NCBI RefSeq assembly: GCF_000003605.2
Contig: NW_003132878.1
Span: 44,842-74,939, forward strand
DNA length: 30,098 bases
Source: Saccoglossus kowalevskii
Lineage: Eukaryota > Hemichordata > Enteropneusta > Harrimaniidae
Reading direction: 5' to 3'
Of this stretch, positions 8,033-28,244 are shown one piece after another (position 1 is the first letter of the stretch; the number at the start of each line of letters is the position of its first letter). The notes beneath the pieces are model-generated. The model was not told the DNA's origin. It made no database searches and was given only the letters and a program-made list of their open reading frames with translations. A program made the translations under genes and the position numbers.

Positions 8033-8071
8033 CTATTTTCTATCACAATTGATATTCACATAATTTTGGTC
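8033..8071 (-). CDS. Exon 17 (probable): C-terminal tail with YVNI motif and stop
   Basis: A phase-0 acceptor with a good pyrimidine tract (GTTCTCTTCTCAAG) is followed by 12 codons, DQNYVNINCDRK, and TAG at 8033-8035. It is the first well-formed acceptor I noticed below exon 16, and joins as LLEKQ-DQNYVNI. Y-V-N-I is a pYxN-type docking sequence seen in receptor tyrosine kinase tails, which supports the choice. A very short tail and only one supporting motif keep this tentative; another terminal exon further left is possible. Confidence 0.55.
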   Translation of the reverse strand, partial: DQNYVNINCDRK

Positions 8072-11000
8072 CTTGAGAAGAGAACGATGCTGCAAAATAC
8101 AAAACAATTGTCATATATTTATCTATCGTGTTACAACTTTGCAGAGAAAATGGTCCGTGATCACACCAAATAAACATCTGTAATGGATTAAACTGGATGG
8201 TTGTAAAACAAATAACTGACTGTATTCAGTACTCATATAAATGTATAACAGCAGGAAAACTCATAGTACGATTAATTGAAAAATTAAGTTAATATATAAA
8301 TTATATACATGGGCTCTAATATCAAATATAATATTTGAATAAATTTATATATTGTAGTTATAATAATAATATAATATTTGAATAAATTTATATATTGTAG
8401 TTATAAATTTTGCTCACCTGCTTTTCTAATAAACGTTTCAATGTTTTGACAATTGTAGAGAATGTCGGTCGTTTGTTTGGGGCTTCTCTCCAACATGATA
8501 ACATCAAGTTGTATCTACAAAAAAAATTAGAAAAACTATGAATCTATTTCAGTGAGATAGATTGCGATGTTTCGTTCGCCTTATCTACTTTAGCTTAAAT
8601 TATCATGATTTGCGCAATAAATACATGTTAATGGTACTATGCTCTGGTTTGGGCATTCGATATCCTGATTGTATCTTCCTAATTACATCAGCGTCTGACA
8701 TTCCCTGGTAAGGTTCGCCACCTACAAAATGAATACAGAGAGCGACAATTATTATACGCCTAGCTCTGTCAATTATGGCGCTGACCACTACAATAATTTG
8801 TGTACACTGTTTTGACCCTTGATCTCTGTACCTAATCAATGAAAACACAAACGAAATAATCGCACAGAATATGTGCCAAAGTGTACGCTGTATCATTATA
8901 TGCAAGTTTTCACAGAGACCAGGTAACACATTGCTGAACAAATAACTATCATAGAAGTATAAATATCACCTAGTACAATACCACTAACTGTACCAATGGA
9001 TAGAGACTACCACGCTTCGTATATAGAGTTTATGGAGACTTGTCTCCACGTTGATGTGGCATATATTAATTTTAATAGAACTCTAATATTAGTTTAGTAG
9101 TTATATGTATCACTTAATAATATGTGCATGTTATATGTTAAATTTAAGATTTGTAGATAATTACATATTTGATAATTACATGTTACAACTCACCTAGAGT
9201 ACTGATCTCCCACAAAAGAACACCAAACGCCCAAACATCAGTCTTAGACGAATAATTATCACCAGAGAATAGTTCTACTGCTTTCCAACGATGCTGAATT
9301 CCAGCCTGTAGATTTAAATTTAATGCAGATCGAAAGTAAACTTAATAAATACATTAAGTACACTCAATCTAGCGCCGTTTTAATGAAACATTTTATGTCA
9401 TCAACAACATGATTTGTTCAATTTTCATTCATGTTCTCTAGTTTTATTAGCGAGTTGTTTGAGTATGTTGTCAATTCCACTTCAATCCCAAGACACAATA
9501 TACAATTACAAACTCTTCTACGTAGTGTGCCGTAACTTATACGTACAAAAGTATTAGTCACTGTGGTTGATGTAGTATTTCTGGCAGCATAATCCATGTT
9601 TCTTATCTTGCAGATGTTCCCTTCTCCAACGTAAATTGTTTCGGCGCAGAGGCTTCTTAGTGTAATCTGTTGAGGGTAGAAACACAATCTAAATAAATTT
9701 AAAATGAATAGATTGGATATGATGTATATTAGTGTTTCCGATGTATAAAGTAGATATATTGAAAATGTTTAACTGATAAACTTGAATATCATTGAATTGT
9801 TCAAATGTTCATGTAATTAAAGGGAATGTTATTGCAACAATATATATATATATATACACATCATATATTTAAGTAATAAAACTCCGCCGTAGTCGGGTAT
9901 ACCATGAGATTTTGCATAAGTCATGACAATATGCATGAGCTACAGGCCAAAAAAACTGTTCTCTGTTTATTGTTAAAGACAATGTATAATTTCCAATAGA
10001 AATACTATAAAAGGATGTTTTAGTATATAAATATAGATACGTTTCAAATAACTAAGTGACAACATAATACTAATTCTTTACATCAAGCGTTCCCAAGTGT
10101 TCCATTGCTTCTGCTATTTGTAATGAATATACGAGTACATTATCTTCTTTTTCATCATGAATGTTCTTTGCGCTTTTCAATAATGTAGACTTAAGGCTGT
10201 TATTTCCGATGTAGTCCTGTACGAAATACGGTGGTTCTAATCAAGAAAAAGATTAAAAAGAAATCATGTTTGATGAGGGTATTGATAGCATAGGAAGTAG
10301 CATGAGCATTATTGACAAGAAATATCAAAATGTTAAAAACTGCTTTCAACAGGGAGCCTTCGGTTACCAAATCCTTGTTTCCAGGCCCCACAGTGAGAAG
10401 ACTGTGGTTTCGGACAAACATTGTTTTTATTTAGGTGTCGAGAGAGGGCGATCTATTGAACTATAGTTTTGTCAAGCGACCCCAGAAATTACTGTAAAAG
10501 ATGACATTTTACCGTGGGCCCTGTGCGAAAGGTCGACTAAGTCGCCATCGTGAGATTCTCTCCCAGAAGCTCTTTCAGCGATGATTTCATGTGTCATTTA
10601 TCGGGATAGTGTGCATTGTATGACATAATTATCTACGTTCCCCATTACTTCATTATTGTTCGAAATAGCGGCTACTCAACCCTAACACCCATTTAACCTA
10701 TATATTGGTAAAATTTGGTCATCTTTACGGGGTTATTTTTAAACAAGGAAATGTTTGAAGTCACAGCTATTGCCGGTTTGATGGTTCGATAGTTTTTTTT
10801 TTAATTTATTTCAACAATGTGATGTCACGATGGTAGTCTGTTACGCCCGTTTGATGTCATTTCCAGTAACTACTTCAACAAGAGGTGTACATTTGCTCAT
10901 CTTCTCAGCTAGAAAAGACCAAGGTGTGTGAACACCGCCGGATTAAGTGGTATGAACGTCGATGCTACGTAAATTGAACATCATCGAGTCTATATATTTA

Positions 11001-14000
11001 CAAGTATTTGGTTTTCTTGTAAAAACTGATTTTTAATGGACTGAGCTGGTACATATAGTACATATTGTACATACATTTTTGTATAGACATAAATGATTAA
11101 TTTATTTAGATTATCTTATAATTTAATAACAAGCATTTCGAACTTTGACATTATTATTATCGATTGTGCTAGCTATTATATCCCAATCCAATTTAATTTA
11201 TTTTGTAATTGCGGAAGTTTAATTGTGTATCCCAGCCACGCTTAAGAATGGATTTTTTGGTGTTGCGTACATTCAGTCTTAAAATAAAATGGTTAAAAGT
11301 ATTTTGAATACTCAGCCTTAGTATGTTTGTTACAAGTGAATACGGCATGCATATAGTTTTGTATGCATTTTACAGAACATGTAATAAATGAGGTGGAGAG
11401 TACATTAAACTTTGAATACATAATTTTGATTTTGGGACCAGAGACCAGAAGTAAAACTGTGAAATAAAGAACCTGGCAAGTTTGTTACCTAACCTGTTAC
11501 AATAGAATATCCTATTAGTGTTAAAATATATGGATGTGGAGTTATGGTCTTCATTATGCTTATTTGGTCTAGAAACATATCCTTCATCCTCTGACACGCA
11601 TGTCCTGAAATAAAACGAAAAACATCAAGGAAACGTTAGAACACTTCAGCAGATGTGCATACAAGGGATATTCGATTCATATTACCCTCACTTTTTAATC
11701 TCTCTACTTCGACACGTGTGACGCCATCTTTACCACCAANNNNNNNNNNNNNNNNNNNNNNNNNNNNNNNNNNNNNNNNNNNNNNNNNNCATACCAAGCA
11801 TCAGCTACGAAACGCTCACGTTCAGTATCGTCATGTAATATTTCTTTGAAATGTAACCTGTTCGGTGGAATGTCCCATATTTTTTCACCAAGTTTCATAT
11901 ATATTTCATTTCCTTGCTTTTCACTATGGAGGTCTTCATATACAACTGCATTATTCTTGACAACTGAACTGAAAATGACCAATACCAATATTATCAACAT
12001 GCATCAATGGCCCAATCCCTTTACTTAAATGATGCATGGATAATACACTGAAAAACGTGAAGCTGGTATATTACTACAGCATCATTTTACAGCAAATTTA
12101 CCTTTATATCACGAGTGCGTTTGAAATACAAATAGCATCCAACAGCTGTCACAATACAGACTAGTAAAACAATACAAACACTCACAATAATTCCAATGTG
12201 GTTGGTGCCTGACTTATTTCCTGTAATATAAAATTATGAAAATAAAGTTTTCATTCTTATATCTACACCTTTTTTTATCGGGCACTACAATTCGATGTGA
12301 TAACCCTTATAGTTATTTCAATCCTTGTCTGAATCTTAAATGGAATCAAAATGATAGTCTTGATTACTAACTTTTCATAGTTTTGAAATAAGAAGCATAA
12401 TTCAATTATTTGGTAATATGGATACTGAATGCTATATTTATTTTTTATCACTATGCCATTATTCGAAACACATAACAGCTTAAATAAAAGTTAATCCTAT
12501 TTTAGCATGACATGAATTTACTTATTCATTTATTGATTTATTCTCTGGAATATAAAAATATGATAGTTCTCGGACGCTCCATTCAACTATCCAATGTATG
12601 GATAATGTTTTAAATTATAGTTTATATCACTTTGGCAACCAGAATAATTTATAATCCTATTTTAGCTTGTGTTTCCACATTCAATATTCATGTTTTTCTA
12701 GTTGAATGGGTTGTAAAAAAAATGGGGGGGGGGGTGTAATCATTATAAATTGTATTGTTCAAAACACAATTGTCAATACATAAAAACATATTTGAAGAAT
12801 TGTTTTGAAATTTTACTTAATACTTTAAATGTGGGGGCGTACCTTTGTTTTTAAGGATTGGGTAAAAGAATACCTTGGTCACTGCATGCTTGTGGTTATA
12901 CAAGTCAGAATAATGGTCTCATTTTAGTGGATATGCAATGTGGTGCAATATGCTTGTTCAATCAGTTCAAATATGTTATATGAAAGAGTTGTTATATAAA
13001 AAATGTTGTTTTCATTTTTATGACTGCAATTTCATTTAAAAAAAAAACATGCTTTCCTGGTATTATAGTTTATAGTGATGATTGTCCCAGGGAATTTGAG
13101 TGAATTGAGTTCACATCGAAAATTGCGTCCTAACTGACTGTATTCAAAATGAAGACCTTTTTATACAATTGTGAATATCATTGATATGCTTTCTTATTGA
13201 ATTTTATTATTTTTTTTACAAATCATGACGAATTGGTCGAAGACATTAAGACATGACACGTAATATTTTGAAATCATTATTATAACTAATAAAGTGGAAT
13301 AATATGGGTTATATTATTTATACAATAAATACAGTTATATATTGGATGTATTTTAGAAAAGTAACCGCTAATATCCAAAAGGCTATTCACGTATTACGGA
13401 ATACTGATCATACCTGTACTATTTTGTACATGAGTGGATTCTTCTAAACAATGGTTCCCATGTACTGTACAGTATGTCACTCTGTATGCAGCGCTAACGT
13501 CATCCACTGCATATTCAAGTTGACTGCCAAGCACACATTCTTTTATTACAACTCAACTGTCATGTACAAGTTTTTCTAATTTCACACACTGATAACTGCT
13601 ATTTTCATGCCTTGTCCAGGTTAATTTTCCAGTTTCTGGATGTATTTCAATAGTTGGTTTACCTATATAGATATACAATATTTGAAAGAAGAAATGGTTG
13701 ATTTTTGTCTGACATCACTTTGAAATGAAAAAGCACGAAGAGCGGTAAAAAAACACATTGAATATTTAACAATAGAAAAATCATGTATTATTGTTTAGCT
13801 TTATAAAGACACAAATTGAATTTTCGATTTCAAAAGTAAACTTGCAAGATATAAGTAATAAAAAGAAAACAATTGTGATATCTATCAAACAAAAATGGAC
13901 AAAAGCACATGATAGATTTGTAACATCGAACGAAAGGTTATAATCGAAAAAAAGGGTAAAAAACATGGGAACAAACAGAATGCTGTCAGTTGGCCACGAT

Positions 14001-17000
14001 GTGCATAAGTGACAACCCCGATGTGATGCCAAATACAAAGAGTAAAGGAAATCCGGCATAGCACATCGGAGGAACGGGTGATGACATATTACAATTTAGA
14101 TTGTTTGCATACAAATAGCCACAATAAGTCCAACGGCGAGTGAATCTTCTGCAATAGTTTGCATATCATTCACCCAGTATATTTCCCATAATAATATAAA
14201 GCCATCACTTTTGAAGGGCTTGAACGTTTTTTTTTGTTTTTTTTTATAAGTGATGTGATGTATCGTACAGCTTTATTTTGCGAGCGAAGCACTGGTGAGT
14301 CGTGGATGGGCACTGCACATCAGCGCATATATGATTTATATAGAATCAACACCTTGATATGTTGGTCAATGTTTGAAAAAAAAAAAAAAACGTTCCGCTT
14401 TCAAAATTAATTCACCAGTCACACGTCTAACAACTCATCTGCAAAATTTGCGGTTAAATATCGTAAATGATTACACATAGACAAGGAAATAATTTACATA
14501 CTTATTTCATAAGTCTTTATAATATTGTGTGAGCGATAATATAACTTTTGAAGGTCTTATTATCATATATATGGAAAATCAAACTATTAAACAATAAAGA
14601 TGAAGTGTAAAATGCCATGGAAATTATGTATGTCAACTTTAGAACTATTTTAATCCATTTGCATTATTTGCATATTAGTGTCCAAGCTTGTATATGTGGA
14701 TATTGTTTAAGTGTATACTATAGAATTAACAGCTTGCACTTGTCATTTCAATTCAGGAATTTAAAAAAAAAACGTTTATTTTATGATTAGTTTATTTAGT
14801 ATACATTTATTATCAGTAAGAAATAATTGTAAACCTTAATTATAGTGACTATATTGAAGTTACACATATCTCGATGACATATACCCTGTTTGTATTACAG
14901 GTATGAAATATATAATAAATATCGAATATCGAATTTGTTTGACCTTAAAACAGCTGTGTGATATTTGAACTTGATCAGCCCAACCAAAAGAGGGGGAATA
15001 AACACATCCTAAAATGTAGCTGAAAATAGACTATATTTCAATCAATATCATATAAGAACTACATCTTACATATTTTATGATCATTTGGTTTCTTTTTAAA
15101 TGATGGCATTGTATCAACATTATATTAATGTCCGTAACTGATACTATATTTGTCACAAAAAGAAGAACATTGCTAAGGATTTATATTTGTGAAAATATAA
15201 CTTTTATTGTATATGAATGATTTTTTTTGTAATTTTCACACATGAAGCTTAGATAGGTTACAACATAATATTAAGTTAAATATTACTTATACTTGTAATT
15301 AGAGATTAATATTATATGAAGTTATTCAAAGAATACCGCTATGATAACACAGCGACCGATTAGTATTGCCTTTTTTTCGATGTACTATTAATAAACTTAT
15401 TATTCTACATGTTCAGTAATCATACCGCGTGGTTAGAATTCCCAAGGCTAAGCAAAATTGTGAAAACGCTATTCGCTATGAACTGCCATGGTAAAATGTG
15501 GTAATCGCTCCATATTCGAAATTTGCATTTTCTAGTATGGACGATACTTTCTAATGGTGAGACATGTGATATAATTACTGTAATTGTGTTATAAAAGAGT
15601 CAGTACATAAGTATTAGATTACTCACCGTATGTCTTAAAACTGAAACTATTTGATATGTCTCCATCTCCAAAACTGTTGGAAGCATAAGCCCTGAATTCG
15701 TATGTAGTATTAGAATTTAAACCTGTCACTGTCAATTTTTTATTCACACTACCTTCACCATCTTTTGGCCATGGTTTATCAGTTGCATTATTGACAAGAT
15801 TATATTGCAGGTAATACAAAATGTTGTTTGCATCATCTCCATGAAATCCAGGTATTATTTCTACAGTAAGTTGTTCATATCCAGTCTCCAATATTAGAAT
15901 TTCATTTGGTGGTCCAGGAGGGCCTATTAATATCAACAAAAACATATTATAAGTATGATTTTAAAAATTACAGCCACAAAATTATGAAGTACTAAATATT
16001 AGTAATCGGGAACATTACACATATTTTTTTTTTCTTTGTAACATACTAAAACATAAAGTGTGAAAGTCGTTTACTTACTAAACACGCGTTCAGGATAAAA
16101 CAAAACCTGTAAAATAACAGTTTAAAGGATCAGTAACAATTATTCTATAATTTTCTTACATTGTACTTCTACTTCTATTGTTTTAACATCTGTTCCATAT
16201 GAACCATCCCAATACGTATTAGTAGCAATACATGTATATACACCACTGTCAGATTGTTGAACATTAGGTATAATTAGAGCTCCAGTAGTTGTCTTGGTAA
16301 CACCATTCTTTTTCCATTTAATACTGTCGTGTGTAGGATTCGACTCAGCTGTAATTGTACAATGTGCAGAGAATTCCTGGCCCATGTCTATTTTGCCATT
16401 ATTATGACCACTTGTAATATTCACTGTTATCTCTGGTGGATCTAATTTGAAAACACAGAATAAAAGCAATATATCAGGTTAACCACACTATGTATTTAAT
16501 TTATAGTAAGATGAAATCGGATATCACTTTAGTGTAATTAGGTAGATATTTTATTGTACATGTTGTTGATATCGTATGAACATTTTCTTTTAGTTTTGAA
16601 GGTTGACAGGGGAACAGACCTTAATTAGACGCCATCATGTACTATAATAACGAATTATTTTATTGTAATGTAATTGCTAGATTGTTGTTAACCATTAATG
16701 ATAACAGATTAATGTATTATGATATAATATATTGTAGTTTGAGATAAATATGGAGTATTTATATATTGATTAAAAATACCACACCTTTTTATGCTAATAT
16801 TTAACCCCGAAAGTAGTTGTTTAATGATATTGTTTATACTAGAGAAAATTATACAGCTAAATATAGAAAAGAACGTATTCAATTTTGAGAAAAAGATGAA
16901 GCATCATTTTGACCGTAATTAACATTCATCGAACATGTAAATATGTGTTATTGATTACTCTAACACACAAACTATTTCTTGAAGAACGCTTTCCAGCATA

Positions 17001-17409: not shown

Positions 17410-17456
<47 letters not shown>

Positions 17457-20400
17457 ATGCATGGAAACAACTACATTTCAACTTCATAGTACTGATCATT
17501 GAAACTACCCTAATAGCCTCTGTAATTATAAATTTATGCGAGATTTTTTATATGATGTCGTAACCAAACATGAAAACAAATATTTTCCAAAAAATAGAAA
17601 ATTGAAAATATCATTATTAAATAAACAAATCTGGCAGAAGCCTACCCAATACACGATATCAATTTGGCTTATAATTTTAAAGAAGTGAAAAATAGAATGA
17701 GGAAGACCAGTCAACTAGTCAGGTATTTTTATTAAAATCCCCCCAAAAAATGATAAGCATCATTAATCAGCCAAGGGTGGAGTCAAAAACAGTTGGGCAA
17801 GACCGAGATACATTTAATGACATTTTTGATTGTTAATTGTGTTCATGCGGTATTGAGTTCTTTTGGGAGAACTGAAAAATGAATGTTGTTTTTTTGTAAT
17901 ACACATACTTACATTGTACGTCAAATATAATATTGTTGTTACATTGTGGATATGTTGACATTTCACTGTAGGTGTATTTACAGTTATAGCTATCATCCTT
18001 ATTAGTTTTGGTTATTCTTCTAGTCCATGACACTGGTCTATTTCCTTTATGATTTGTATCTTGTCCATTTTTAATCCATAGTAGCTCACCAGGTGGTGCT
18101 ACTTTATTTAGATCACATATCATTGTAACACCAGTACCAGTAATGAGCTCATAATTCGATCTAATAAACCCGTGTGTGGTACAGGTTGGTGATTCATCTG
18201 TAGCAATGAACAAGATTAAAATTAAAAGTTTTCATTCATTGGTTACTCAAAATTGTATTGGTCTTATTGATCTTAAATTGTACCCATTATGTTCAGTATA
18301 CTCCACTGTGAAGATGCGTTATTTCCTTAAAATATCACATGCCTGGGAATTGTCTGAGCTCATCATTATGAATAACTGTAGTATTGCAAGTATTGTTGAT
18401 GCAATCTATTATATAAGTATGTCATTGGACAAGACATGTTACTAAAATTGCTGACTGGAACATTCAACTTAACTTGTGTGGAAATCTCTCATTATATATT
18501 CAGAAGATAACTAAGTAAAGTAAGATAACTAAGTAAATATATGGCGCAATTACATTTTTACATCATGGTACTGATATTTTAGGCTACGCCAATGACAATC
18601 ACGTGATCTCATTAATTATGAAACAGAAGCCTGAAAGCTCGGCGGCTTTTATTCTTCTTTCTTACATAGCTAACCTGTGTGCGCTGATGCGGGCCAATAG
18701 GAACCGGTGAAAATAGTTTTCAAAATGTCGATTTGCCCAATACTTTTGAAATGTTGCATTGCTTCCCACTCTTCCCAATGCTTGCCAGTTTTGAATCTAA
18801 CGAGCTCTAAGAAGCTAAAACTAGTTGCACAATGTCATGTTCTATGCAAAATGTCACCAAACTGGCCAGGAGAAGGCGTTAGGTACAATTATGGTGCATT
18901 GTGTGTAAGTTTTGTTTAGAATTGTAGCTATAGTTCGGAAACTTAGTGAGTACATGTCTGCTTGTCTGCTACAGAAATATCCTTGAAGCATTATGGTTGG
19001 AATTTTACTGACATAAACTATGTGTGTGCTACAATATCTTTCAATACATTCTTCAGCATTAAAGTGATCGCAGAAAAACGGCTTTATTCCCATTTATTCT
19101 TAACCACTTTCATATTACTGCCACATTCGTTCTATTGTTTTGAAATTCTGGTTTAAATAACATACTTCATCAGCCATGTGGTTTTCCTGCTATCTTTGAT
19201 TTTTTACAAAAATAACCAAAAGTCGTTGTAGCCCATACGTAGTTTATGCCAAACAAATCAATTCTCCTTGGACCTCAGATAGATTCAAGAAAATCACTAC
19301 TTCCGGTTTAGGTTGAATCCAAGATGGTGGCCATTTTCAGATTTAATGCGGTGGTATGAAATACATAAATATTATGATCGGAATTGAGACAGCCAATATA
19401 AGACTCAATGGCTACTGGCACTTTGCCCCAGACATTTTAAACCTGCAAAGCCCCGATATTATTTCACACCAATTATAATGTCCATATTCATAGTAGAAAC
19501 ATTTACGGCGTAAGGTAATGACAATATAATAATGTAGTCTTTACACATCATGGTTCCTTTGAAATGCGAAAAAATGCCCAAATTTGTAGACATATTTGGC
19601 AGTAAGTAATAAAGTACTTAGACAAAATCACTGATGGCAACAGAACCACATTACCAATCACAAAGAGTTTCGCAAACATTAAAAAGCTTCATACATAGAT
19701 TCCAGGAAACACTTTCACTTCAATGTGTTCAGCGGTCCTGAAGAATCAGACGTCAGAATCAGAAGAATCAGAAGTGTTTGAACAAAATCTATAGGGTTCA
19801 AACAGACTTGGACCATATATGATGTTAATCAGTAGTATTAAACCTGGCATACTAGAAAAAGTGACATCTTCAAATATTTAAAATAGTCACCCTTTAAACA
19901 AAAAAAATCAACATGCATATGTTTCCCACTCTAACCAACTTAGAACAAAATCAGTCCAGGCATGTCCAGGAAATGGTATGATATAAGATGGACAGACAGG
20001 ATGCAAACTCCTGTTTCGGACTACATCTGACAGGAACTTCAATGTATGGGCATTAAAACTATTCATCATTCAAGTATAATAAAAATGATTAATATTGATT
20101 CCAATGACATTCATAGAAAAATGTGATTTTGCCTGCAGTACAAAACACGAATGGAACAGAAAATAATAGTTGAATCAAGACCAAATGTGACACTGATACC
20201 AGAACAATTTCCTATTATTTTGTAAATTAACTAAAATATTACCTACCTAATACGAACAATGTAGTAGACTTGGCACTATGAGTAATATTATGTGCTAAGC
20301 ATTCCCACACACCTTCATCTGTGTTGACATTGACATGGTTGATTGTCAGATAGTATTCACCATTGGTATGGTTACCGCTAAGTCCACAAGTATTACATTT

Positions 20401-23400
20401 ATCAGAGTCAATGTTAATACCACGTGATACGACTCTTGATGATATCGAATCATATATTTGCTGCCATCGTGGGTATGTAGTAGGCTGAGGAGCATCTAAT
20501 ACACATCTCAGAGTGGCAGAACCACCATGTTGTACCACAGTATTGGTTGGTTCTTCAGTCCACATGGCATCCGGGGTACATAACAAATGACAAAGTGCTT
20601 ATTAATATTTTTTTAATTATTCAAAAAGTCTTGGCTATAGACTGTTGAAATTTTGTAGAATTGTGAATAGTGTAAAATACTCAAAACACGATTTTAAAAT
20701 ATAGATAACAGGTGCAAACATTATCTCTTTTGAATTCTTAGCAAGATTTAGCAAGGCTGTACATAAATAATAAAAAAAAACATGGTGAAAAAAAGAAATG
20801 ACGGGATCTCCATATTATGCACTGTATTAAACTTTTTACAAAACGATTATACATTTAAATTTGAAACTGTAACAGCCATTTTAATTATGAGCGTTGGCAA
20901 ACTTTTTACTGAGTGAATTGTTATGCAAATTAGCAATTATCTCATATTGAAAAGGTGTGATTTTGATGCATTTTCACATGAAAATGACTGCTATTTTCCC
21001 ACCTTTGTTGGGATCACAAACGCATGTCCTACATGACGTTTTATGTGTGTGAAGGTCGAATTGGGTCACTCCAATCATGTATTAGATATGCTTGAATACA
21101 AATCGAGGCATGCACACATGGACGCACGATGGTCACTGCGTCTAAACTTCATTAAAAGCAATGGTTGATGTACAATGCATGAAGTTATGCTGGTAATTAG
21201 AATGGTATATTTAGTTAAACAAAGTAAATCATAATAGAATACACACGTATAGACTTTATAAAGTACAAAACATTTAGATGTATTACGAGTTAAATGTTTA
21301 ACATTTTTGCACAAGTCATGAACCAGTGTTTTCTATTGTAATAAATTTGTGAACTTTCAAAGGTCAGAAATAGTCAATTTTACCATACATACCCAATAAC
21401 TTGTCCTTAAAATGAGAATCGCTGTTAGTACGTGTTTCAAAGTGATCTTTGAAACGAGTGAATTATGTGTAAATATGTGTTAAAGAAAGGTTTAAAAAAA
21501 GGCTCATAATTTAGCCGTAATTTTTGGATCATTCCAATCTTTCCTGGTGCCTAAATTAAAGTGTAATTTATTTTTTGTGGGCTCTGATGCTTATTCACTA
21601 ATACGATATGAAAATGTGGCTAGAGGCTGGTACCGCCATTCTGATTGGTTAACAAACTGAGGTCAAATGGCGCAGTTTCAAGGCAACTCATCCATGAGAA
21701 AAGCGGTCATCACATGCTGCATGGAATAATTTGTTTTTGCATTTGCATTTAATTAAGAATAAATCTAGTTAAACCACTACATAAATTATACAACCTTAAC
21801 GTATCGCCAGGAATCCTGATACACTGTATTATTTCAAAATATACTCACTGGATATTATATAGGAATAATTAACTACATTTCATGCTGCCTAGAAAAATCG
21901 GAAACAGTTTCTTTCAGAGTACAATATTTCATTATGAAATTCATGGCAACTCTGTTTTTCACCATTCATTCCTTTGACATTTTCTGCTATTATTTAATCT
22001 GCTTTCTAACCAAAGCATTATCAACATGCATATGCTGAAAAAGAAGTTACAAACTTTCTTTAAGGTGATAATAAATCATTTGTTTTATGTATATTGTCAT
22101 TTCATCCTTTTTTCCCATCGGGACTCACCACATTATAATGCGACCGCAACCCAAAAATTCTCATTATATAGCGTATAAAGAAAGTGTATAAGGAAGGTTA
22201 ATTATAATTTTACTTAAACGCAAGGGCCTACAATATCACAATGTTTGATCAAAGTCGTAGTCATAAGCTAGTGTGTCCGTGTACTATACCCCACAACAAC
22301 ATTGGACGTCCTATGTTCACACTCTCCGACTTTGGTCATTATGTGCTGTAGTTTTCACAAGCAGCGAACATTTATAAATTGCCTCCACAAATTGTAGCGT
22401 TTGTTTAGGACGTTCGTTCGTTATTAGCTTACTCTGCGATTAGTGCCACCAGCGACGAAGAAGTAAAATATTTAACCACCAATGAAACGGGCGAGGGAAA
22501 CGTGTAGCTCAAACCATATACATTTTGATAAAATATATTTATATCAGTGAAAATAATAATATTGTATTAGCAAGACCAGTCGTTTAAATTGAGATGAACG
22601 GATCCATATAAATTTATACGAGCGCTGACGCAGCAGAATTACCTCGTCCATAAGAATGCCAGGGGACTGATAATTGTATCGGACCCATTATGGGAGCCAT
22701 TGTCTAATCCTGGTGCTGCGTATTGAATGTACTCAACTTTACTGCTGAGTGAGCTAGCAAAGAGTCTAACCAACAACAGTCACACGCGCCCGAAAACTTA
22801 ATTGATTAATTAATTCCAGCAGTCTAGTATGCAAGTTTGATATTGCATACAGCTGTAGTGCAAACGTCAAACGACGATAATGTGTATTCAAGAAACATGC
22901 GATTGTATAACTAACAAGAATTTAAGCGAAAGCACAAGCTGGAATTAAAATTAAATCAACTAAAAGAGGCAAAGTAGAATAGTATTTATATAGTAGATAT
23001 ATTGCATGAAACAAATATTGTTTTGCTATACAAAATAGTCGATAAAATACAAAATAATAATAAAACCGATCGATAAAATACAAAAATTGCAAACGCACAT
23101 GTTATTTGAATTGACAGTATTTAGCAGTAATTAAAATGTGCTGTTTTTAGTAATACATGTAAAATGGCAGTCCTACAAAAACAACGCTACTTGTGTCGAA
23201 GTAAATCACAATTATTATATCATTATGCAATGTTGATTAAAGTATTACGATATACTCCAAATGTAAACTACTTTTCCACTTTAAACAATATAAAGAGTAC
23301 AATTGTGCGTTACGCATACACAGTTGTCATCCTAATATCACGATGCACAGGAGCACGTGTAGGTTACGCAAATAACTGATTTGTAAGTTTACCATTATAA

Positions 23401-24417: not shown

Positions 24418-24481
<64 letters not shown>

Positions 24482-27400
24482 ATTATAATTGTATTAGAGA
24501 GTACATAATTGTATGCAATGCCTACAAGTCAGACATGTATTTCCAGGTGCACATGTAGGTGGTTCCTAAGTATTTATATATACCACTATTCAAACAAGGA
24601 TTTGGGTTACACGGGCTGACAGCTGAAAATAGGCCACACATTCATAGTACAACGAACGCCCAAAGTGGAGGATGTTAGTTTTAAGTGTAAGTAGTATATG
24701 CATAAATACGAAGTAAATATGTAACGCGTTGTTGTTTATTGTTACATTGATAATTGATACATTAATGATACAATACTAGTACATTATAGTCAGTCTAACC
24801 TGCAGACCACGTGACTTTCCATCCGGAGTACTCCAAGTTTTTATCAGTACCGAAGTACATCCAGAACGAATCAGTCTTAATTGTCAATGATTCTGGGACA
24901 GCTTGGCCATCATAGAACCAAATCACACCGGGCTGGCTTACACCTCGGAAATTGGCAACGCTATACTCCACCCCAGGACCAATGTATAGTTCGTCTTTCG
25001 GTTCTTCCACGTGAAAAAGTGGGTCAAATATTAAGGTTATAGACTTGGCACCGGGAATGTAACATACATATCCTGCCGAATGCCGAGGTGGGTAGGTATC
25101 AGGCCAATTGATAGATTGAAAAGACCCCGTTGCACAGTCAATTCCGTAGCAGCTGTATAGATTTTGGTGATCTGAAAACAATGGAAATTATTACATGACT
25201 TAATGCAATTATCATGTCGTTTGTAATGTTCATGATATTGGACGTCAATGTGTCTGAACTTTGCTGTCAGTGCGTTCATCCGAGTTCGTCATCTCGTTGT
25301 TATAATATAACACCTATTATTTTTATTATTTCAATAAGTATAACTGCACATGCGTATTAGTGCTAGTTTACATTTTTAAGCGAGCGAATAATGTTGCATG
25401 TGTGTACTGCAAAAACAATATACGATAGTTTATAATCCGATTTTGTTTTCAACGTGCAACTATTAAACTTACAAATGATAAGCAAGTCCCTGTGTCTATA
25501 TTGCCTTTTTAATTTCGATATAGCTAATAGCGGACGTAATTGTACAGGTCAAATGTGCCAAAACCCACTTACCTCCTATAACATTGCACTCAGGACCCAT
25601 ATAATGAGAATCGATATCTTCTAAACATTCACACACGTATGACAACTCGTTCAATGGTGGATCTATCCGATCATAGCATGTACGCGTAATTCCACGAGCA
25701 TTGCATACATTCATTGAACAATCTGCAAAAAATAATATACACACATGTTAATGTACAATAACATACAGTTTAAGAGTAATTCTGGTAAATACTTTTCAAT
25801 TCCACACCAAACGTACACGACCTCGGTGTTTTCAAGTGTTTATCTTATTGTGTTGTCATAAACTGGTTTGACCTTAACATATACATAACATATAACTCGG
25901 TTTTAGGTTTTTGTTTATGAAGATATAAAAACTAGGTATCTTTATCAATATAAATTTGTAATTACGAGAAGCCATTTCAAATGACCATTATACCCCACCA
26001 CGCCAAATCACCATTAGGCTGCCCGGGAAAACCAATAGTCTTGACGAGATGTGTATATTGTAACGGAACGTCAACGCGCGTCTTTTCATACAATTATACG
26101 GCATAGATGTATAAAAAAACACTAGGCTAAAGGTACTGTCGATAGTTCAGTCTGTGCCATAAATAAAATAATATATTGAGAATATATCATCGGAGGTGGT
26201 ACACTTACTAGGTTTTTACCAAGTAACGCATGGAGAACTATAGCATATACGGTCTATTGGTTATATAGCGCCACCAATTACGAAATTCGCTTTGGTTCAC
26301 ACCCTACTGTACATAATGTGACGATGAAATAGCTACATGTCATTTTAGGTATACTTTCATTGAAATTAACTACATCTTAAATTAGCGAAATTACAGATTA
26401 GCTAAAATAGCATACTAGCTAAAAGGACATGTTTATTGTATATTGTCGGTAGGTTACATATTATTGTGACAAGAAACTGGTTTCAAAAGCCTGTTGTACC
26501 AATGCAGTTCACACCATTATATAGACGTAACATACTTTTTCATCAGTGTTCCTTTGTTCTCCGACAACTCAAATCGAAAAAACAAAACAAAAACTAGACA
26601 GTTAGTAAATATTGACATACGAACACGCTTGTTTTCAATTAATCAGGATAACTTCAATCAGAAGAGCTTGAAGGCGTGGTATAAAAAGGCTGATATTGCT
26701 CATCGCCTACATGCAATATATCAGTGGCCACTTCAACAGTTTATTATGAAAGAGCATAAACTTCTATAGTTTATGGGAAGAGAAACGAATATAATAGAAT
26801 CTAAAAAAAAACATATACTATCAATTTGAACTATCGTGCTACATAGGTTTGTTTATACAGGGTTACTGCGTGTCATACTGTCTGAGCATGCGCATTCCCT
26901 GTCGAAATGATTCATTTGATGAGGTGAAGAAAAGAAAGGTAGTACATGCACTGATCGCCCTATGCCCTGGTTGACACCTTTGTTATACATTTCTTTAAAG
27001 GCCATGGCATGTTGAACCGTTGTTCATCGTTGTTCTGTGTCACGATTCACTTCACTCCGAAAAGCGTGAGACTAACAGTATTTGTATTTACAATGAAGCG
27101 TAACGAGCAGACAATGAAACTATAACAGATTTTATAAAAGTTGATTTTATCAGCTTTAACTTTAAATAAAGCCATGAACTGAGCGACTCATTACATACCA
27201 AATTAATTCAAAGAACGTATTACCATGTATGTTGCGTATATACTTATTGTGTTCTCGGCTACGTGTTTCTATAATAATATTTTCCATATGGTTAATTAAG
27301 GGTTGTAACGTCACAGTATAAAAACCGTCACATACGCAATACTGTATACAGGCAGAGTTTAAATGTTTATGAACGACGAGTAAAATTAAAAAAAAAAAAA

Positions 27401-28244
27401 AACTACTAATAACACCGTGTCCGATATGCCGTACATGACAACATTGAGCCTGGCAATTTTTACGATGGCCAGTTCCGTTAGGAACGTGCTCAATATCAAT
27501 GCCATGAAATGTCTTTATAATGAACAAGCTTGTAAAAGAGTTCCTGAACTTTGTAATGGCCATGATAATGGCGTTAAATAATGAAAAACTAGCCATATCT
27601 CCCTCAAGGGATATTCAATTAATTATATATTTATTTATGGATGAAACAGTCATGTCCAATTCCAAAAAAAGTTACTGAACGAGTGCAAGCGTTCAGTGAA
27701 GTACGAATTAGGGTCTATACGTAATTATTTTAGATGCAGCATCACGTGATTACTGGTTCGCCCATGTAATTACATATGCCTCACGTAATTGTCATTGATT
27801 ACTCTCCCATAGCATTGTTACAATGTGTACTGGCAAATAAAAACCTAACATTCTGCTTAAATTATTTTGTGTACGCTGTAGCATTTAAGCAAATATAACA
27901 ATGCTTACTCTTTTAAATGACCGTCATATTTACTTTGCTTTCATATTACGAATCGCTTTGAATATACTGTGACGCACGTTGAAATAGTTACATGCCATTT
28001 TAGCAAATTTGGCTCGGTGCACGAAATAGCGTCAACAAGTACCAATAGTATGATTGTTTTATTGTGACTAACATGATACATGTAATGGTTGGTTTCGTGC
28101 GCGACAGCATAGAATTTTTCCTAGTTTCACCGCTCGCTACATCGCACCAGACCGGGTAATTGCAATATAACTACGAATATTACCTTGCGCATCAGTCCAA
28201 ACTGCTAAAGCAGTCGCTACAAACATACACGTATAAATCCACAT
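8033..28244 (-). CDS. Receptor-tyrosine-kinase-like pseudokinase gene, 17 exons (EGF-CUB-Ig3-FN3x2-TM-pseudoTK)
   Basis: This is a single-pass membrane receptor reconstructed exon by exon. Domains run signal peptide, EGF-like, CUB, Ig, Ig, Ig, FN3, FN3-like, transmembrane helix, tyrosine-kinase fold and a short tail, about 1,060 codons. What I see is that all 16 junctions use GT-AG with matching codon phase, and the kinase exons align in order with receptor tyrosine kinases. The Lys of VAVK, the helix-C Glu, the HRD Asp, the loop Asn and the DFG Asp are all replaced, so catalytic activity is not expected. By family knowledge such proteins act at the plasma membrane as ligand-binding co-receptors, decoys or scaffolds; that role is inference here. 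Oddities are a 50-N gap in the N-lobe and an in-frame TGA at 13553-13555. The kinase part is most like the FGFR/VEGFR/Tie-type group, but I cannot name an orthologue. More modules could hide in the long introns. Confidence 0.88.
8325..8406. repeat. Tandem duplication, 43-base period
   Basis: 39 bases at 8325-8363 recur without change at 8368-8406 (core ATATTTGAATAAATTTATAT). The second copy ends about 11 bases from the exon 16 donor, inside the last intron. Confidence 0.9.
8418..8514 (-). CDS. Exon 16: kinase subdomain XI
   Basis: Acceptor TTTTTTTTGTAG leads, in phase 2, into YNLMLSCWREAPNKRPTF, then STIVKTLKRLLEKQ. C-W-x-x-x-P-x-x-R-P-T-F is the subdomain XI signature, with the conserved Arg present. 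Donor CAG|GTGAGC is in phase 0. This closes the kinase fold. Confidence 0.9.
8625..8721 (-). CDS. Exon 15: kinase subdomains IX-X
   Basis: After acceptor CATTTTGTAG the exon reads GGEPYQGMSDADVIRKIQ and SGYRMPKPEHSTIN. This matches the C-lobe of receptor tyrosine kinases (G-G-x-P-Y-x-x-x and G-Y-R-M-x-x-P). Donor AACAT|GTATTT leaves phase 2, which joins the next exon to give INIYNLMLSCW. Reading past this donor meets a stop within a few codons, which supports the splice. Confidence 0.88.
8722..9193 (-). other. Intron 14
   Basis: 472-base intron between kinase exons 14 and 15, with GTGAGT donor and TTTTGTAG acceptor. Nothing else recognised. Confidence 0.75.
9194..9305 (-). CDS. Exon 14: kinase subdomains VIII-IX
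   Basis: A 112-nt exon runs from phase 0 to phase 1 (acceptor AAATCTACAG, donor G|GTGAGT). IQHRWKAVELFS replaces the usual R-W-M-A-P-E-A-L-F, so the APE Pro is Val. The next part is fully canonical: SSKTDVWAFGVLLWEISTLG matches subdomain IX, including the structural Asp and the W-x-F-G-V core. Confidence 0.9.
9547..9666 (-). CDS. Exon 13: degenerate catalytic loop and DFG region
   Basis: A 120-nt, phase 0-0 exon (acceptor CTACCCTCAACAG, donor GTACGT). It begins ITLRSLCAETIYVGEGN, which aligns residue for residue with I-H-R-D-L-A-A-R-N-V-L-V-G-E-G-N. HRD has become LRS and the metal-binding Asn has become Thr. ICKIRNMDYAAR aligns with V-x-K-I-x-D-F-G-L-A-R, with DFG changed to NMD. The activation segment NTTSTTVTNTF has no tyrosine pair. 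The conserved G-E-G-N and K-I framework shows that the fold has been kept while the chemistry was lost. Confidence 0.85.
9667..10081 (-). other. Intron 12 with TA dinucleotide repeat
   Basis: 415-base intron, GTAAAG donor, CCTCAACAG acceptor. It holds a short (TA)8 run at 9841-9856 and nothing else I recognise. Confidence 0.75.
10082..10236 (-). CDS. Exon 12: kinase beta5, hinge, helices D and E
   Basis: A 155-nt exon runs from phase 1 to phase 0. The acceptor is strong (TTTTTCTTGATTAG). EPPYFVQDYIGNNSLKSTLL matches beta5 and the hinge of receptor kinases (x-Y-x-V-x-E-Y-x-x-x-G-x-L), with Val in the gatekeeper region. VYSLQIAEAMEHLGTLD matches helix E (Q-I-A-x-x-M-E-x-L). Donor GAT|GTAAAG gives exactly the canonical spacing to the HRD position in the next exon. 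It contains an insert-like acidic stretch, HDEKEDN, between helices D and E. Confidence 0.82.
10237..11493 (-). other. Intron 11
   Basis: 1,257-base intron between helix C and hinge exons. I found no further kinase exon and none is needed, since helix C joins directly to beta5 in correct phase. The plus-strand frame 10266-10466 shows no motif. Confidence 0.7.
11494..11604 (-). CDS. Exon 11: kinase helix C and beta4
   Basis: A 111-nt, phase 1-1 exon with a strong acceptor (GTTTTATTTCAG). MKDMFLDQISIMK aligns with helix C, and TPHPYILTLIGYS aligns with the H-x-N-I-x-x-L-L-G strand beta4. The salt-bridge Glu of helix C is Gln (codon CAA, 11564-11566). Donor G|GTTAGG is preferred over the nearby GTAACA because the latter would add an in-frame TAG. 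Confidence 0.83.
11686..11968 (-). CDS. Exon 10: juxtamembrane segment and kinase beta1-beta3, interrupted by assembly gap
   Basis: Acceptor TTTTCAG leads into a juxtamembrane segment with tyrosines in VVYEDL and EIYMKL, then KIWDIPPNRLHFKEIL, which matches the W-E-x-P-R-x-x-L start of receptor tyrosine kinase domains. The glycine loop that should follow (GxGxFGxV) is instead HDDTERERFVADAWY. N bases fill 11740-11789. Beyond the gap the frame GKDGVTRVEVERLKSE matches strand beta3, but VAVK has become VEVE. The donor is G|GTAATA, phase 1. The reading frame across the N run is not continuous, so the true gap length differs from 50 or is unknown. Confidence 0.75.
11740..11789. other. Assembly gap of 50 N
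   Basis: A run of exactly 50 N interrupts exon 10 between the degenerate glycine loop and strand beta3. The coding frames on its two sides are not in register through the N run, so its length should be read as a placeholder rather than a measured size. Confidence 0.95.
12091..12220 (-). CDS. Exon 9: transmembrane helix
   Basis: After acceptor ATATTACAG the exon reads GNKSGTN, then the hydrophobic helix IGIIVSVCIVLLVCIVTAVG and the stop-transfer sequence YFKRTR. This is a type I single-pass anchor. Two donors are possible. AAAG|GTAAAT at 12102 would leave phase 0, which matches no acceptor in the next exon. TTTGCT|GTAAAA at 12091 leaves phase 2 and fits the acceptor at 11968. I therefore chose 12091, which makes a 122-nt intron. 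Confidence 0.8.
12221..13413 (-). other. Intron 8 with poly-G tract
   Basis: 1.2-kb intron between the FN3-like exon and the transmembrane exon. It contains an 11-G run at 12724-12734, which stands out in this AT-rich DNA and is a likely sequencing-error spot. Confidence 0.7.
13414..13662 (-). CDS. Exon 8: second FN3-like membrane-proximal domain with in-frame TGA
   Basis: A 249-nt, phase 1-1 exon (acceptor CTATATAG, donor ACAG|GTATGA) fits between exon 7 and the transmembrane exon. The first half (GKPTIEIHPETGKLTWTRH) and the second half (DVSAAYRVTYCTVHGNHC) resemble an FN3-type fold with several cysteines. Codon 37, at 13553-13555, is TGA in the only frame that joins both neighbours; good coding sequence continues after it. 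CGA is one transition away. Exon length divisible by three means skipping this exon would keep the reading frame. Whether the TGA is real, allelic or an error cannot be told from this copy alone. Confidence 0.7.
13663..15626 (-). other. Intron 7
   Basis: About 2 kb between the two FN3-type exons. A-rich runs (14377-14390) and T-rich runs (14228-14245) are present; no further FN3 or Ig exon was recognised. Confidence 0.65.
15627..15923 (-). CDS. Exon 7: fibronectin type III domain
   Basis: A 297-nt, phase 1-1 exon (acceptor ATTAATAG, donor G|GTGAGT). The 99 residues start with PPGPPNEILI and show FN3 landmarks: ILYYLQYN in the C strand region and LTVTGLNSNTTYEFRAYA followed by SFGDGD, matching the L-x-P-x-T-x-Y-x-F-R-V-x-A-x-N-x-x-G pattern. 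Two sequons (NAT, NTT) are present. FN3 domains near the membrane are common in receptor kinases. Confidence 0.88.
16160..16441 (-). CDS. Exon 6: immunoglobulin domain 3
   Basis: A 282-nt, phase 1-1 exon joined after exon 5 to give the classic inter-Ig linker VQ-YPPEITV. The core is complete: FSAHC, IKWKKNG, then SDSGVYTCIA, which is the canonical D-S-G-x-Y-x-C motif. The donor is CAAT|GTAAGA. This is the best-conserved Ig domain of the gene and sits next to the fibronectin region. Confidence 0.88.
17090..17293 (-). other. Orphan exon-like ORF inside intron 5
   Basis: A strong acceptor (ATTGTTTTTTCAG) is followed by 67 open codons and TAA. The product, with FKHFGDVLISDMARKFVSLA and later FVCNCAFGHHKYAKQC, has balanced composition but no family I recognise. 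Joined to exon 5 in phase 1 it would give an immediate TAG, so it is not a coding extension of the receptor. It may be a transposon or retrocopy remnant, or chance. Confidence 0.25.
17411..17454. repeat. (TAT)n microsatellite
   Basis: Uninterrupted TAT trinucleotide repeat of about 14.7 units in intron 5. Confidence 0.98.
17913..18197 (-). CDS. Exon 5: immunoglobulin-like domain 2
   Basis: A 285-nt, phase 1-1 exon (acceptor ATTGCTACAG, donor CAAT|GTAAGT). It shows an Ig-like core: GTGVTMIC, then LLWIKNG with the core Trp, then DDSYNC. The usual D-x-G-x-Y-x-C is changed to D-D-S-Y-N-C. Two further cysteines (PTC near the start, PQC near the end) could form a second disulphide. The domain is more divergent than its neighbours but occupies the expected slot between two clear Ig exons. 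Confidence 0.75.
18198..20246 (-). other. Intron 4
   Basis: About 2 kb between Ig exons 4 and 5. It includes a small tandem duplication (AAGATAACTAAGTAAA at 18504-18519 and 18522-18537). No further Ig exon was recognised. Confidence 0.65.
20247..20597 (-). CDS. Exon 4: immunoglobulin domain 1
   Basis: The exon encodes an Ig domain with GGSATLRC (strand B Cys), YPRW (core Trp) and LTINHVNVNTDEGVWECLA (D-x-G-x-W-x-C, strand F). The donor TTAG|GTAGGT is clear and in phase 1. The 5' edge is uncertain. The acceptor used here (AATAAG, exon from 20597) has a poor pyrimidine tract. A second in-frame choice is CTGAAG with the exon from 20552. Both keep phase 1-1 and both lie upstream of the Ig core. 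An extra CNTC pair sits between strands D and E, and two N-glycosylation sequons (NHT, NIT) are present. Confidence 0.8.
23748..23800 (+). repeat. Possible tRNA-like SINE head
   Basis: TCTAAGTTAGAGTGGG resembles an A box. CAGTTCGAACCG, about 39 bases on, closely fits the pol III B-box consensus GGTTCGANNCC. The preceding GTGTACCAG resembles the candidate at 6.0 kb. It does not fold convincingly as a functional tRNA gene by eye. Confidence 0.35.
24418..24480. repeat. (TAT)n microsatellite
   Basis: About 20 uninterrupted TAT units within intron 3, the same motif and strand as the repeat at 17.4 kb. Confidence 0.98.
24800..25171 (-). CDS. Exon 3: CUB domain
   Basis: A 372-nt, phase 1-1 exon (acceptor TTGTTTTCAG, donor GTTAGA) encodes 124 residues. 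CUB hallmarks are visible: a first Cys followed by G-x-F-x-S-x-NWPDTYPP, then a second Cys in YVCYI, the strand ITLIFDPLFHVEE, the acidic DELYIG stretch, and a closing SGWKVTW. Cysteines 3 and 4 of the classical CUB domain are missing, so only the first disulphide is expected. CUB domains bind proteins in extracellular complexes; the partner here is unknown. A CUB domain inside a kinase-type receptor is unusual. Confidence 0.85.
25172..25572 (-). other. Intron 2
   Basis: 401-base intron between EGF and CUB exons, GTAAGT donor, GTTTTCAG acceptor. Nothing else recognised. Confidence 0.8.
25573..25722 (-). CDS. Exon 2: EGF-like domain
   Basis: This is a 150-nt, phase 1-1 exon with acceptor TTTTTTGCAG and donor GTAAGT. 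The 50 residues carry six cysteines spaced C-x4-C-x8-C-x14-C-x-C-x12-C, ending with GPEC. That is the EGF-like disulphide pattern. It lies directly after the signal peptide and forms the N-terminal extracellular module. No calcium-binding EGF consensus is evident. Confidence 0.8.
25723..28183 (-). other. Intron 1
   Basis: About 2.5 kb between the signal-peptide and EGF exons. Frames at 26494-26769 (plus) and 27162-27596 (minus) are open but carry no recognisable motif. First introns often hold enhancers; no specific site is claimed. Confidence 0.6.
28184..28244 (-). CDS. Exon 1: start codon and signal peptide
   Basis: ATG at 28242-28244 opens a 20-codon exon beginning MWIYTCMFVATALAV, then WTDAQ. 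The hydrophobic core followed by small polar residues is a typical secretory signal peptide. The exon ends in phase 1 at CAAG|GTAATA. This start was chosen because it gives a complete signal peptide and its phase matches the next exon, which begins G|AT (Asp) TGT (Cys). No in-frame stop lies close upstream, so an earlier ATG is not formally excluded, and an untranslated upstream exon is possible. Confidence 0.75.

Follow-up and report, generated by a model that had tools for sequence, protein, structure and literature searches.

Saccoglossus kowalevskii carries, on the minus strand of a 30,098-nucleotide (nt) stretch of contig NW_003132878.1 (assembly GCF_000003605.2, positions 44,842 to 74,939; hereafter the window), a full receptor gene of the tyrosine kinase type, running from about 28244 to 8033 and lying wholly within the window. 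The kinase domain of this gene has kept its fold and lost 15 of 16 catalytic residues. The favored explanation, at a probability of roughly 0.55, is that the gene encodes a non-enzymatic, single-pass pseudokinase receptor, belonging to a set of related genes that has lost catalysis repeatedly while the fold remained under selection.

The losses can be read directly from the kinase exons. The glycine loop is HDDTERERF (minus strand, 11809-11835), VAVK is VEVE with Glu in place of the Lys (codon 11702-11704), and the Glu of helix C has become Gln (codon 11564-11566). Likewise, HRD is LRS with the Arg kept, the loop Asn is Thr (both within 9637-9660), and DFG is NMD (9592-9600); the three residues by which a pseudokinase is recognized, namely the VAIK Lys, the HRD Asp, and the DFG Asp, are here Glu, Ser, and Asn. 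Meanwhile, DVWAFGVLLWEI, GYRMPKPE, and CW...RPTF are unaltered, and the spliced protein matches PF07714 at 176.4 bits (cut-off 23.1; E 8.5e-52), identifying a tyrosine kinase-like fold. An earlier, sequence-only reading had reported these same lost and intact motifs, all of which were recovered in place on the minus strand. It counted seven exons; all seven are present, but a coding tail exon comes after them, and the eight exons from 11968 to 8033 make up one kinase domain plus a C-tail ending DQNYVNINCDRK. Judged by its residues, such a domain is predicted to be incapable of phosphotransfer, and it would very probably fail to bind Mg-ATP in the usual manner.

It could be argued that the catalytic motifs are restored by unassembled or alternative exons, or were lost to misassembly, and that no pseudokinase exists in the cell. 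The argument can draw on a run of 50 N, overlooked in the sequence-only reading, within the glycine-loop exon (11740-11789, between the glycine loop and VEVE), where the two sides differ in frame at that length. When gap lengths of 0 to 12 N were tried, the frame was open at 0, 3, 6, 9, and 12, and a length of 0 scored best against the homologous exon on contig C2043 (73 vs. 59 or less); the gap looks like a placeholder. Restoring exons, whose appearance in transcripts the sequence-only reading named as a refutation, did not turn up in the DNA: a six-frame phmmer and motif scan of the whole window gave no further significant kinase-like exon. Five HRD[LIVM] strings occur in the window, none of them among the kinase exons, and these are judged to be chance occurrences, including one (frame 14799-14894) with a correctly spaced Asn. 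The losses are, moreover, spread over several exons, and open-frame, degenerate catalytic exons are found in 15 paralogs. Restoration of the motifs is thus scarcely credible.

The pattern of loss is selective. Across eight active or ancestral kinases (TIE2, FGFR1, VEGFR2, INSR, RET, EGFR, a Src-Abl ancestor, and PDGFR-alpha, with some domains incomplete), 50 alignment columns are invariant, comprising 16 that we take to be catalytic or nucleotide-binding and 34 others. The window gene keeps one of the 16 (the HRD Arg) and 29 of the 34 (Fisher p 9.5e-8), and a similar disparity is seen in the C-lobe alone (1/8 vs. 24/28, p 2.8e-4). In a second alignment with more sequences and 48 invariant columns, the corresponding counts are 1/16 and 27/32 (p 1.9e-7), while the human controls included there retain 11/16 and 30/32 (PTK7), 13/16 and 30/32 (ROR2), and 13/16 and 31/32 (HER3). 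These counts bear out the proposal that catalysis was lost and the fold kept.

What is observed is not what an active kinase decaying neutrally would leave. The 942 codons read (319 kinase and 623 ectodomain; two exons with stops excluded) are stop-free, and neutral divergence was simulated starting from these present codons. Only 3.75% of runs were still stop-free at 0.02 substitutions per site and 0 of 400 at 0.05, where 7.8 stops had accumulated on average; if two stops are tolerated, 17.75% of runs pass at 0.03 and 1.25% at 0.05. Divergence of 0.03-0.05 removes 1.1-1.9 of the 16 catalytic residues, relative to the 15 lost by the window gene; a divergence of 0.5 took away at least 15 in 1.1% of runs, and one of 1.0 in 28%. 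On these numbers, catalysis had gone well before the gene could have become a pseudogene.

The window gene belongs to a larger group of degenerate relatives in its own genome; the interpretation offered by the sequence-only reading was partly supported but too narrow. A PF07714 search of the assembly (572 Mb, 4830 contigs) gave 158 exon matches. Loci were taken by their window-like exon pattern and, later, by matches to a family juxtamembrane query and an LRx-type query. In total, 26 other rows were rebuilt, with the catalytic exon read in 25. These relatives are a biased sample and no census, in which many of the 158 matches are left out and near-copies or alleles may be present. In 15 of the 25, HRD, DFG, or both are altered, and ten combinations occur. 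HRD is kept with GFG in the GFG group (C1010, C2189, and C665), and HRK occurs with SFS in the HRK quartet (three on C1750, one on C3408). The HRY pair has the loop Asn replaced by His, with NFG on C2043 and NFS on C779. The LRx-type members are VRA/ELG (C1372, 59.5 kb), LRS/DLG (C2031), LRV/DLG (C4032), LRF/DLE (C768), and IRI/DLG (C2478), and C2915 has HGN/NIG. The canonical HRD, Asn, and DFG are present in the other ten (C1237, C1372 at 45.5 kb, C1501, C2265, C2390, C3323, C4312, C4445, and two on C4613).

Of the 15 degenerate relatives, all 10 in which the VAIK Lys position was read keep that residue (one by eye), and the helix-C Glu is likewise present in all 10 read. The HRD Asp survives in 3/15, the DFG Asp in 4/15, the APE Glu in 15/15, and the helix-F Trp in 14/14. 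The paralogs thus show partial losses, and they share the window gene's exon layout and juxtamembrane motif; together with its nearest position in the tree, these features place the window gene within an expanded, own-genome set of receptor kinases. The 0 stops in 3406 paralog-exon codons carry no weight, since the pieces were drawn from stop-free frames. An ectodomain CUB query recovered distant CUB exons only (best 40%, on C759), a virus collection gave no match, and kinase-like matches at three bacterial metagenome-assembled-genome loci in a prokaryote collection were not used. Two further loci were noted in passing. C1939:25518-26054 is PTK7-like (HKDLATRN...SNLALTKDAY, with HKD and an altered DFG) and is perhaps a PTK7 ortholog, and repeat-like long frames (FITCYLYFQVHYMLFIFPSS and variants) occur at C779 53500-56500, in the intron directly upstream of the HRY catalytic exon.

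In the main tree (258 columns and 33 rows, with the 16 catalytic columns removed), the nearest neighbors of the window gene are the HRY pair (88/37), and the HRK quartet joins next (80/90). Support is 97/92 for the LRx group and 100/100 for the GFG group; both stand apart from these and are joined to one another at 90/75. Earlier, smaller trees placed the window gene beside the Src-Abl ancestor (0.129) or beside the TIE2/FGFR/VEGFR/PDGFR/RET group (0.750), so that its exact place varies from tree to tree. At the DFG position, the window gene reads NMDYA and the HRY pair NFGYA and NFSYA, with the Asn and the following Tyr-Ala in common. The kinase tree, a check proposed in the sequence-only reading, puts the gene among degenerate relatives of its own genome, but at moderate support. 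Membership in known families was also considered. The Tie family was suggested by the tail motif and domain modules, but three trees do not join the window gene to TIE2; the C4613 pair joins TIE2 (89) in one tree, which the main tree does not repeat. Similarly, PTK7, ROR, and HER3 were set aside, as the tree with the human controls gives PTK7 with ROR2 (0.878) and EGFR with HER3 (1.000), and the window gene lies in it beside the TIE2-to-RET group named above.

How many times catalysis was lost can be approached in several ways. Under parsimony, three changes are needed. That all 16 degenerate members, the window gene included, share a single origin is not rejected by the approximately unbiased test (p 0.119), although 0% of 200 bootstrap trees contain it. 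The GFG group has HRD without the DFG Asp, and four of the five LRx members have the DFG Asp without the HRD Asp; neither state can be derived from the other without regain, which points to at least two inactivations. These look independent, provided that the residue logic's assumption of no regain holds.

Selection on the degenerate kinase exons was assessed in paralog pairs by the Nei-Gojobori ratio of nonsynonymous to synonymous divergence (dN/dS). Three close HRK pairs gave 0.07, 0.11, and 0.11 (Fisher p 1.9e-13 to 7.5e-12) and three GFG pairs gave 0.22, 0.26, and 0.33, the last value also being that of the canonical HRD/DFG pair on C4613. One LRx pair has a ratio of 0.14 at a dS of 3.1, and for the remaining pairs (distant HRK, HRY, LRx, and C2265-C2390) dS was saturated. 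The low ratios in the HRK and GFG groups mean that dead-looking kinase domains are maintained by selection, most firmly in HRK, and an old pseudokinase family under selection is well supported.

The principal difficulty with the favored explanation lies in the copy at hand rather than in the family. The exon immediately preceding the transmembrane exon contains an in-frame TGA (Table 1), which the sequence-only reading also overlooked, and its claim of open frames accordingly stands for the kinase part but not for the whole gene. Coding-like composition is seen both before and after the stop (top 0.07% and 0.2% of a null of overlapping stop-free non-exon windows). A scripted reading of the exon gave one TGA and no frameshift, and an intron around the TGA was dropped, being about 34 nt long and out of phase. 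The close paralog on C55 (24800-26800) has this exon at 87% DNA identity along with the transmembrane exon, with homology breaking beyond them, and is possibly an ectodomain-only receptor. Relative to C55, dN/dS in the pre-transmembrane exon is 0.22 (differences at 14 of 48.3 synonymous sites and at 15 of 194.7 nonsynonymous ones; Fisher p 1.9e-4), indicating constraint until recently. The exon is 249 nt long with phase 1-1 boundaries, and its skipping would preserve the frame; the relic EGF-like exon upstream, whose composition is also coding-like (top 1% of the null), can be skipped in the same way. The TGA could reflect skipping of the exon, an error in the sequence, an allele carried by a minority, or loss of the gene in the very recent past. 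A weak match to this exon also lies on the opposite strand about 9.5 kb beyond the window (C2469:84474-84602, plus strand; 35%, E 0.32), with a TGA inside, perhaps a neighboring duplicate's relic or chance.

Several observations weigh against a functional receptor at this locus. The placement in the tree is moderately supported and unstable between trees, the window gene falls in no starred set, and its branch, at 1.33, is the longest of its clade (the HRY pair has 0.26 and 0.45). It alone, among the degenerate members read, has lost both the Lys and the helix-C Glu, and this joint loss and the long branch fit relaxed constraint as well as they fit a new role. Its dS to kinase relatives is saturated, so that no dN/dS is obtained for its own kinase exons. 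Homologs of the TGA-bearing exon are stop-free on C55 (81% protein identity), C1691, C779, and C356; the transmembrane exon is weakly constrained relative to C55 (differences at 10 of 21.7 synonymous sites and at 24 of 68.3 nonsynonymous ones); and 43 matches included no similar catalytic or APE exon for C55, the closest copy. Finally, with a TGA in a skippable exon, it is uncertain whether the window allele is translated through the membrane.

A former pseudokinase receptor, once retained, may have died recently, becoming a pseudogene through the TGA, with kinase exons that yield nothing useful. Such a death is a possibility to be taken seriously, albeit a doubtful one: the stop in a formerly constrained exon that is open on four other contigs, the relic EGF-like exon with its TAG, the weak acceptor of the first Ig-like exon, one weak donor, and the long branch would all be accounted for, but no other stop occurs in 942 codons, both stop-bearing exons can be skipped in frame, and a single stop may be a sequence error or minority allele. 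Alternatively, inclusion of the TGA exon could produce a secreted decoy, a soluble ligand-binding ectodomain for which the kinase exons are leftovers or serve a skipped isoform only. The stop's location, just upstream of the transmembrane exon and past all recognized ectodomain domains, and the strong coding signal leading up to it are consistent with a decoy. Nonetheless, coding-like sequence continues past the stop and the homologs read through, so the stop is recent, and nonsense-mediated decay is expected for a stop-containing transcript; a decoy is unlikely.

Under the favored explanation, the EGF/CUB/Ig/FN3 ectodomain would bind a ligand or partner receptor, and the pseudokinase fold would dock with an active receptor of its own set, of which four nearby paralogs keep HRD and DFG. 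The active partner could then phosphorylate juxtamembrane and tail tyrosines (YMKL and YVNI), and these may recruit SH2 adaptors in a manner likened to HER3 and OLD-1/FLOR-1; YVNI fits the pYxN motif of Grb2. The retained non-enzymatic signaling role envisaged in the sequence-only reading thus finds support at the level of the family, in the purifying selection on two paralog groups. Family-level repeated loss is the strong claim, and the function of this particular copy is its uncertain, weak point.

The gene's exons are ordered as in a receptor tyrosine kinase and are in frame, given skipping of the TGA exon and use of a candidate microexon (Table 1). Only the CUB, third Ig, FN3, and kinase domains pass Pfam cut-offs. 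The ectodomain introns are phase 1, and the frame is kept, with GT-AG boundaries, at every junction from beta3 to the tail, including one with a weak donor after 8625 (CAT|GTATTT). Phase 0 at the end of the transmembrane exon does not suit the juxtamembrane exon, which needs phase 2; an apparent frameshift here was dropped, since the microexon, with its strong sites, bridges the two in frame. As its counterpart could not be recognized in paralog C55, the microexon remains a proposal. The good splice sites asserted in the sequence-only reading are thus mostly so, save for that weak donor and the reliance on the microexon. Among repeats, the intron ahead of the tail exon has a perfect 43-bp tandem duplication (8325-8406), and intronic TAT microsatellites lie at 17411-17454 (about 15 copies) and 24418-24490 (about 24 copies).

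Table 1. Exons of the receptor gene, in window coordinates and in order of transcription.
Feature	Coordinates	Strand	Remarks
First coding exon, signal-peptide-like (MWIYTCMFVATALAVWTDAQ)	28184..28244	-	ATG; in-frame phase-1 donor; signal peptide by eye
EGF-like exon, six Cys	25573..25722	-	Pfam EGF_2 E 0.0072, below cut-off; in frame
CUB exon	24800..25171	-	Pfam CUB 6.6e-9, over cut-off
Relic EGF-like exon, in-frame TAG at end, probably unused	24522..24622	-	Pfam EGF 0.033, below cut-off
Ig-like exon 1, weak acceptor aataag	20247..20597	-	Pfam Ig_3 1.4e-5, below cut-off
Ig-like exon 2	17913..18197	-	Pfam Ig_2 1.7e-4, below cut-off
Ig-like exon 3	16160..16441	-	Pfam Ig_3 1e-12, over cut-off
FN3 exon	15627..15923	-	Pfam fn3 1.4e-5, just over cut-off
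Pre-transmembrane exon, 249 nt, phase 1-1, in-frame TGA 13553-13555	13414..13662	-	No Pfam match over cut-off
Transmembrane exon	12102..12220	-	Hydrophobic stretch by eye; phase-0 donor AAG|GTAAAT; homologous transmembrane exon on C55
Candidate 23-nt microexon joining transmembrane and juxtamembrane exons	12025..12047	-	Strong sites both sides
Juxtamembrane, glycine-loop, and beta3 exon, 50-N gap 11740-11789	11686..11968	-	
Helix-C exon, Glu to Gln	11494..11604	-	
Hinge to helix-E exon	10082..10236	-	
Catalytic-loop exon (LRS, Thr, NMD)	9547..9666	-	
APE/helix-F exon, DVWAFGVLLWEI intact	9194..9305	-	
Helix-G/H exon, GYRMPKPE intact, weak donor	8625..8721	-	
Helix-I exon, CW...RPTF intact	8418..8514	-	
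C-tail exon with YVNI and stop	8033..8089	-	

Like the window gene, TIE2 has Ig, EGF, and FN3 modules in its ectodomain and a Tyr-Val-Asn in its tail, and it is the top natural single-domain chain for the window gene's C-lobe and tail (100.8 bits, vs. 98.7 for PDGFR-alpha). However, a query with the whole kinase ranks RET, PDGFR-alpha, and FGFR3 higher, and the window gene differs from TIE2 in having a CUB domain and a dead kinase. A broader likeness is seen to the human receptor tyrosine pseudokinases (HER3, PTK7, ROR1, ROR2, RYK, EphA10, EphB6, and STYK1), which are also single-pass proteins that keep the fold and have lost catalytic residues. According to PMC7586955, EphA10 and EphB6 lack the VAIK Lys, HRD Asp, and DFG Asp all together, and the triple loss by itself is therefore not new. 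As tabulated in Table 2 of PMC13259870, all eight human proteins keep the glycine loop or the VAIK Lys; unlike these eight as listed there, the window gene has lost the glycine loop, the Lys, the Glu, the HRD His and Asp, the Asn, and all of DFG together. The nearest functional precedent is FLOR-1 of C. elegans, a pseudokinase receptor of the lineage-specific KIN-16 family that acts with the active OLD-1 and is described in PMC10523662 as keeping the Lys and Glu, with the glycine loop gone along with the Asp and Asn of the HRD motif region. The own-genome set would resemble the KIN-16 family as a lineage-specific group of receptor kinases; a point of difference is that 15 of 25 sampled relatives are degenerate here.

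Among papers listed in searches of an open-licence library, none was recognizable as describing such an expanded receptor pseudokinase family. It is tempting to suggest, at somewhat short of even odds, that the pseudokinase state is the rule in this expanded set, that its dead members are selected as a recognition repertoire signaling via a few active relatives, that at least two and perhaps four losses took place, and that the window gene is the most degenerate member read. Taken as a whole, one genome would then hold a graded series, from HRD/DFG through GFG, HRK, HRY, and LRx to a gene with all motifs gone, relative to eight scattered genes in human. If true, this series would allow the order of catalytic loss, the purpose of the fold, and the number of active partners needed to be put to the test.

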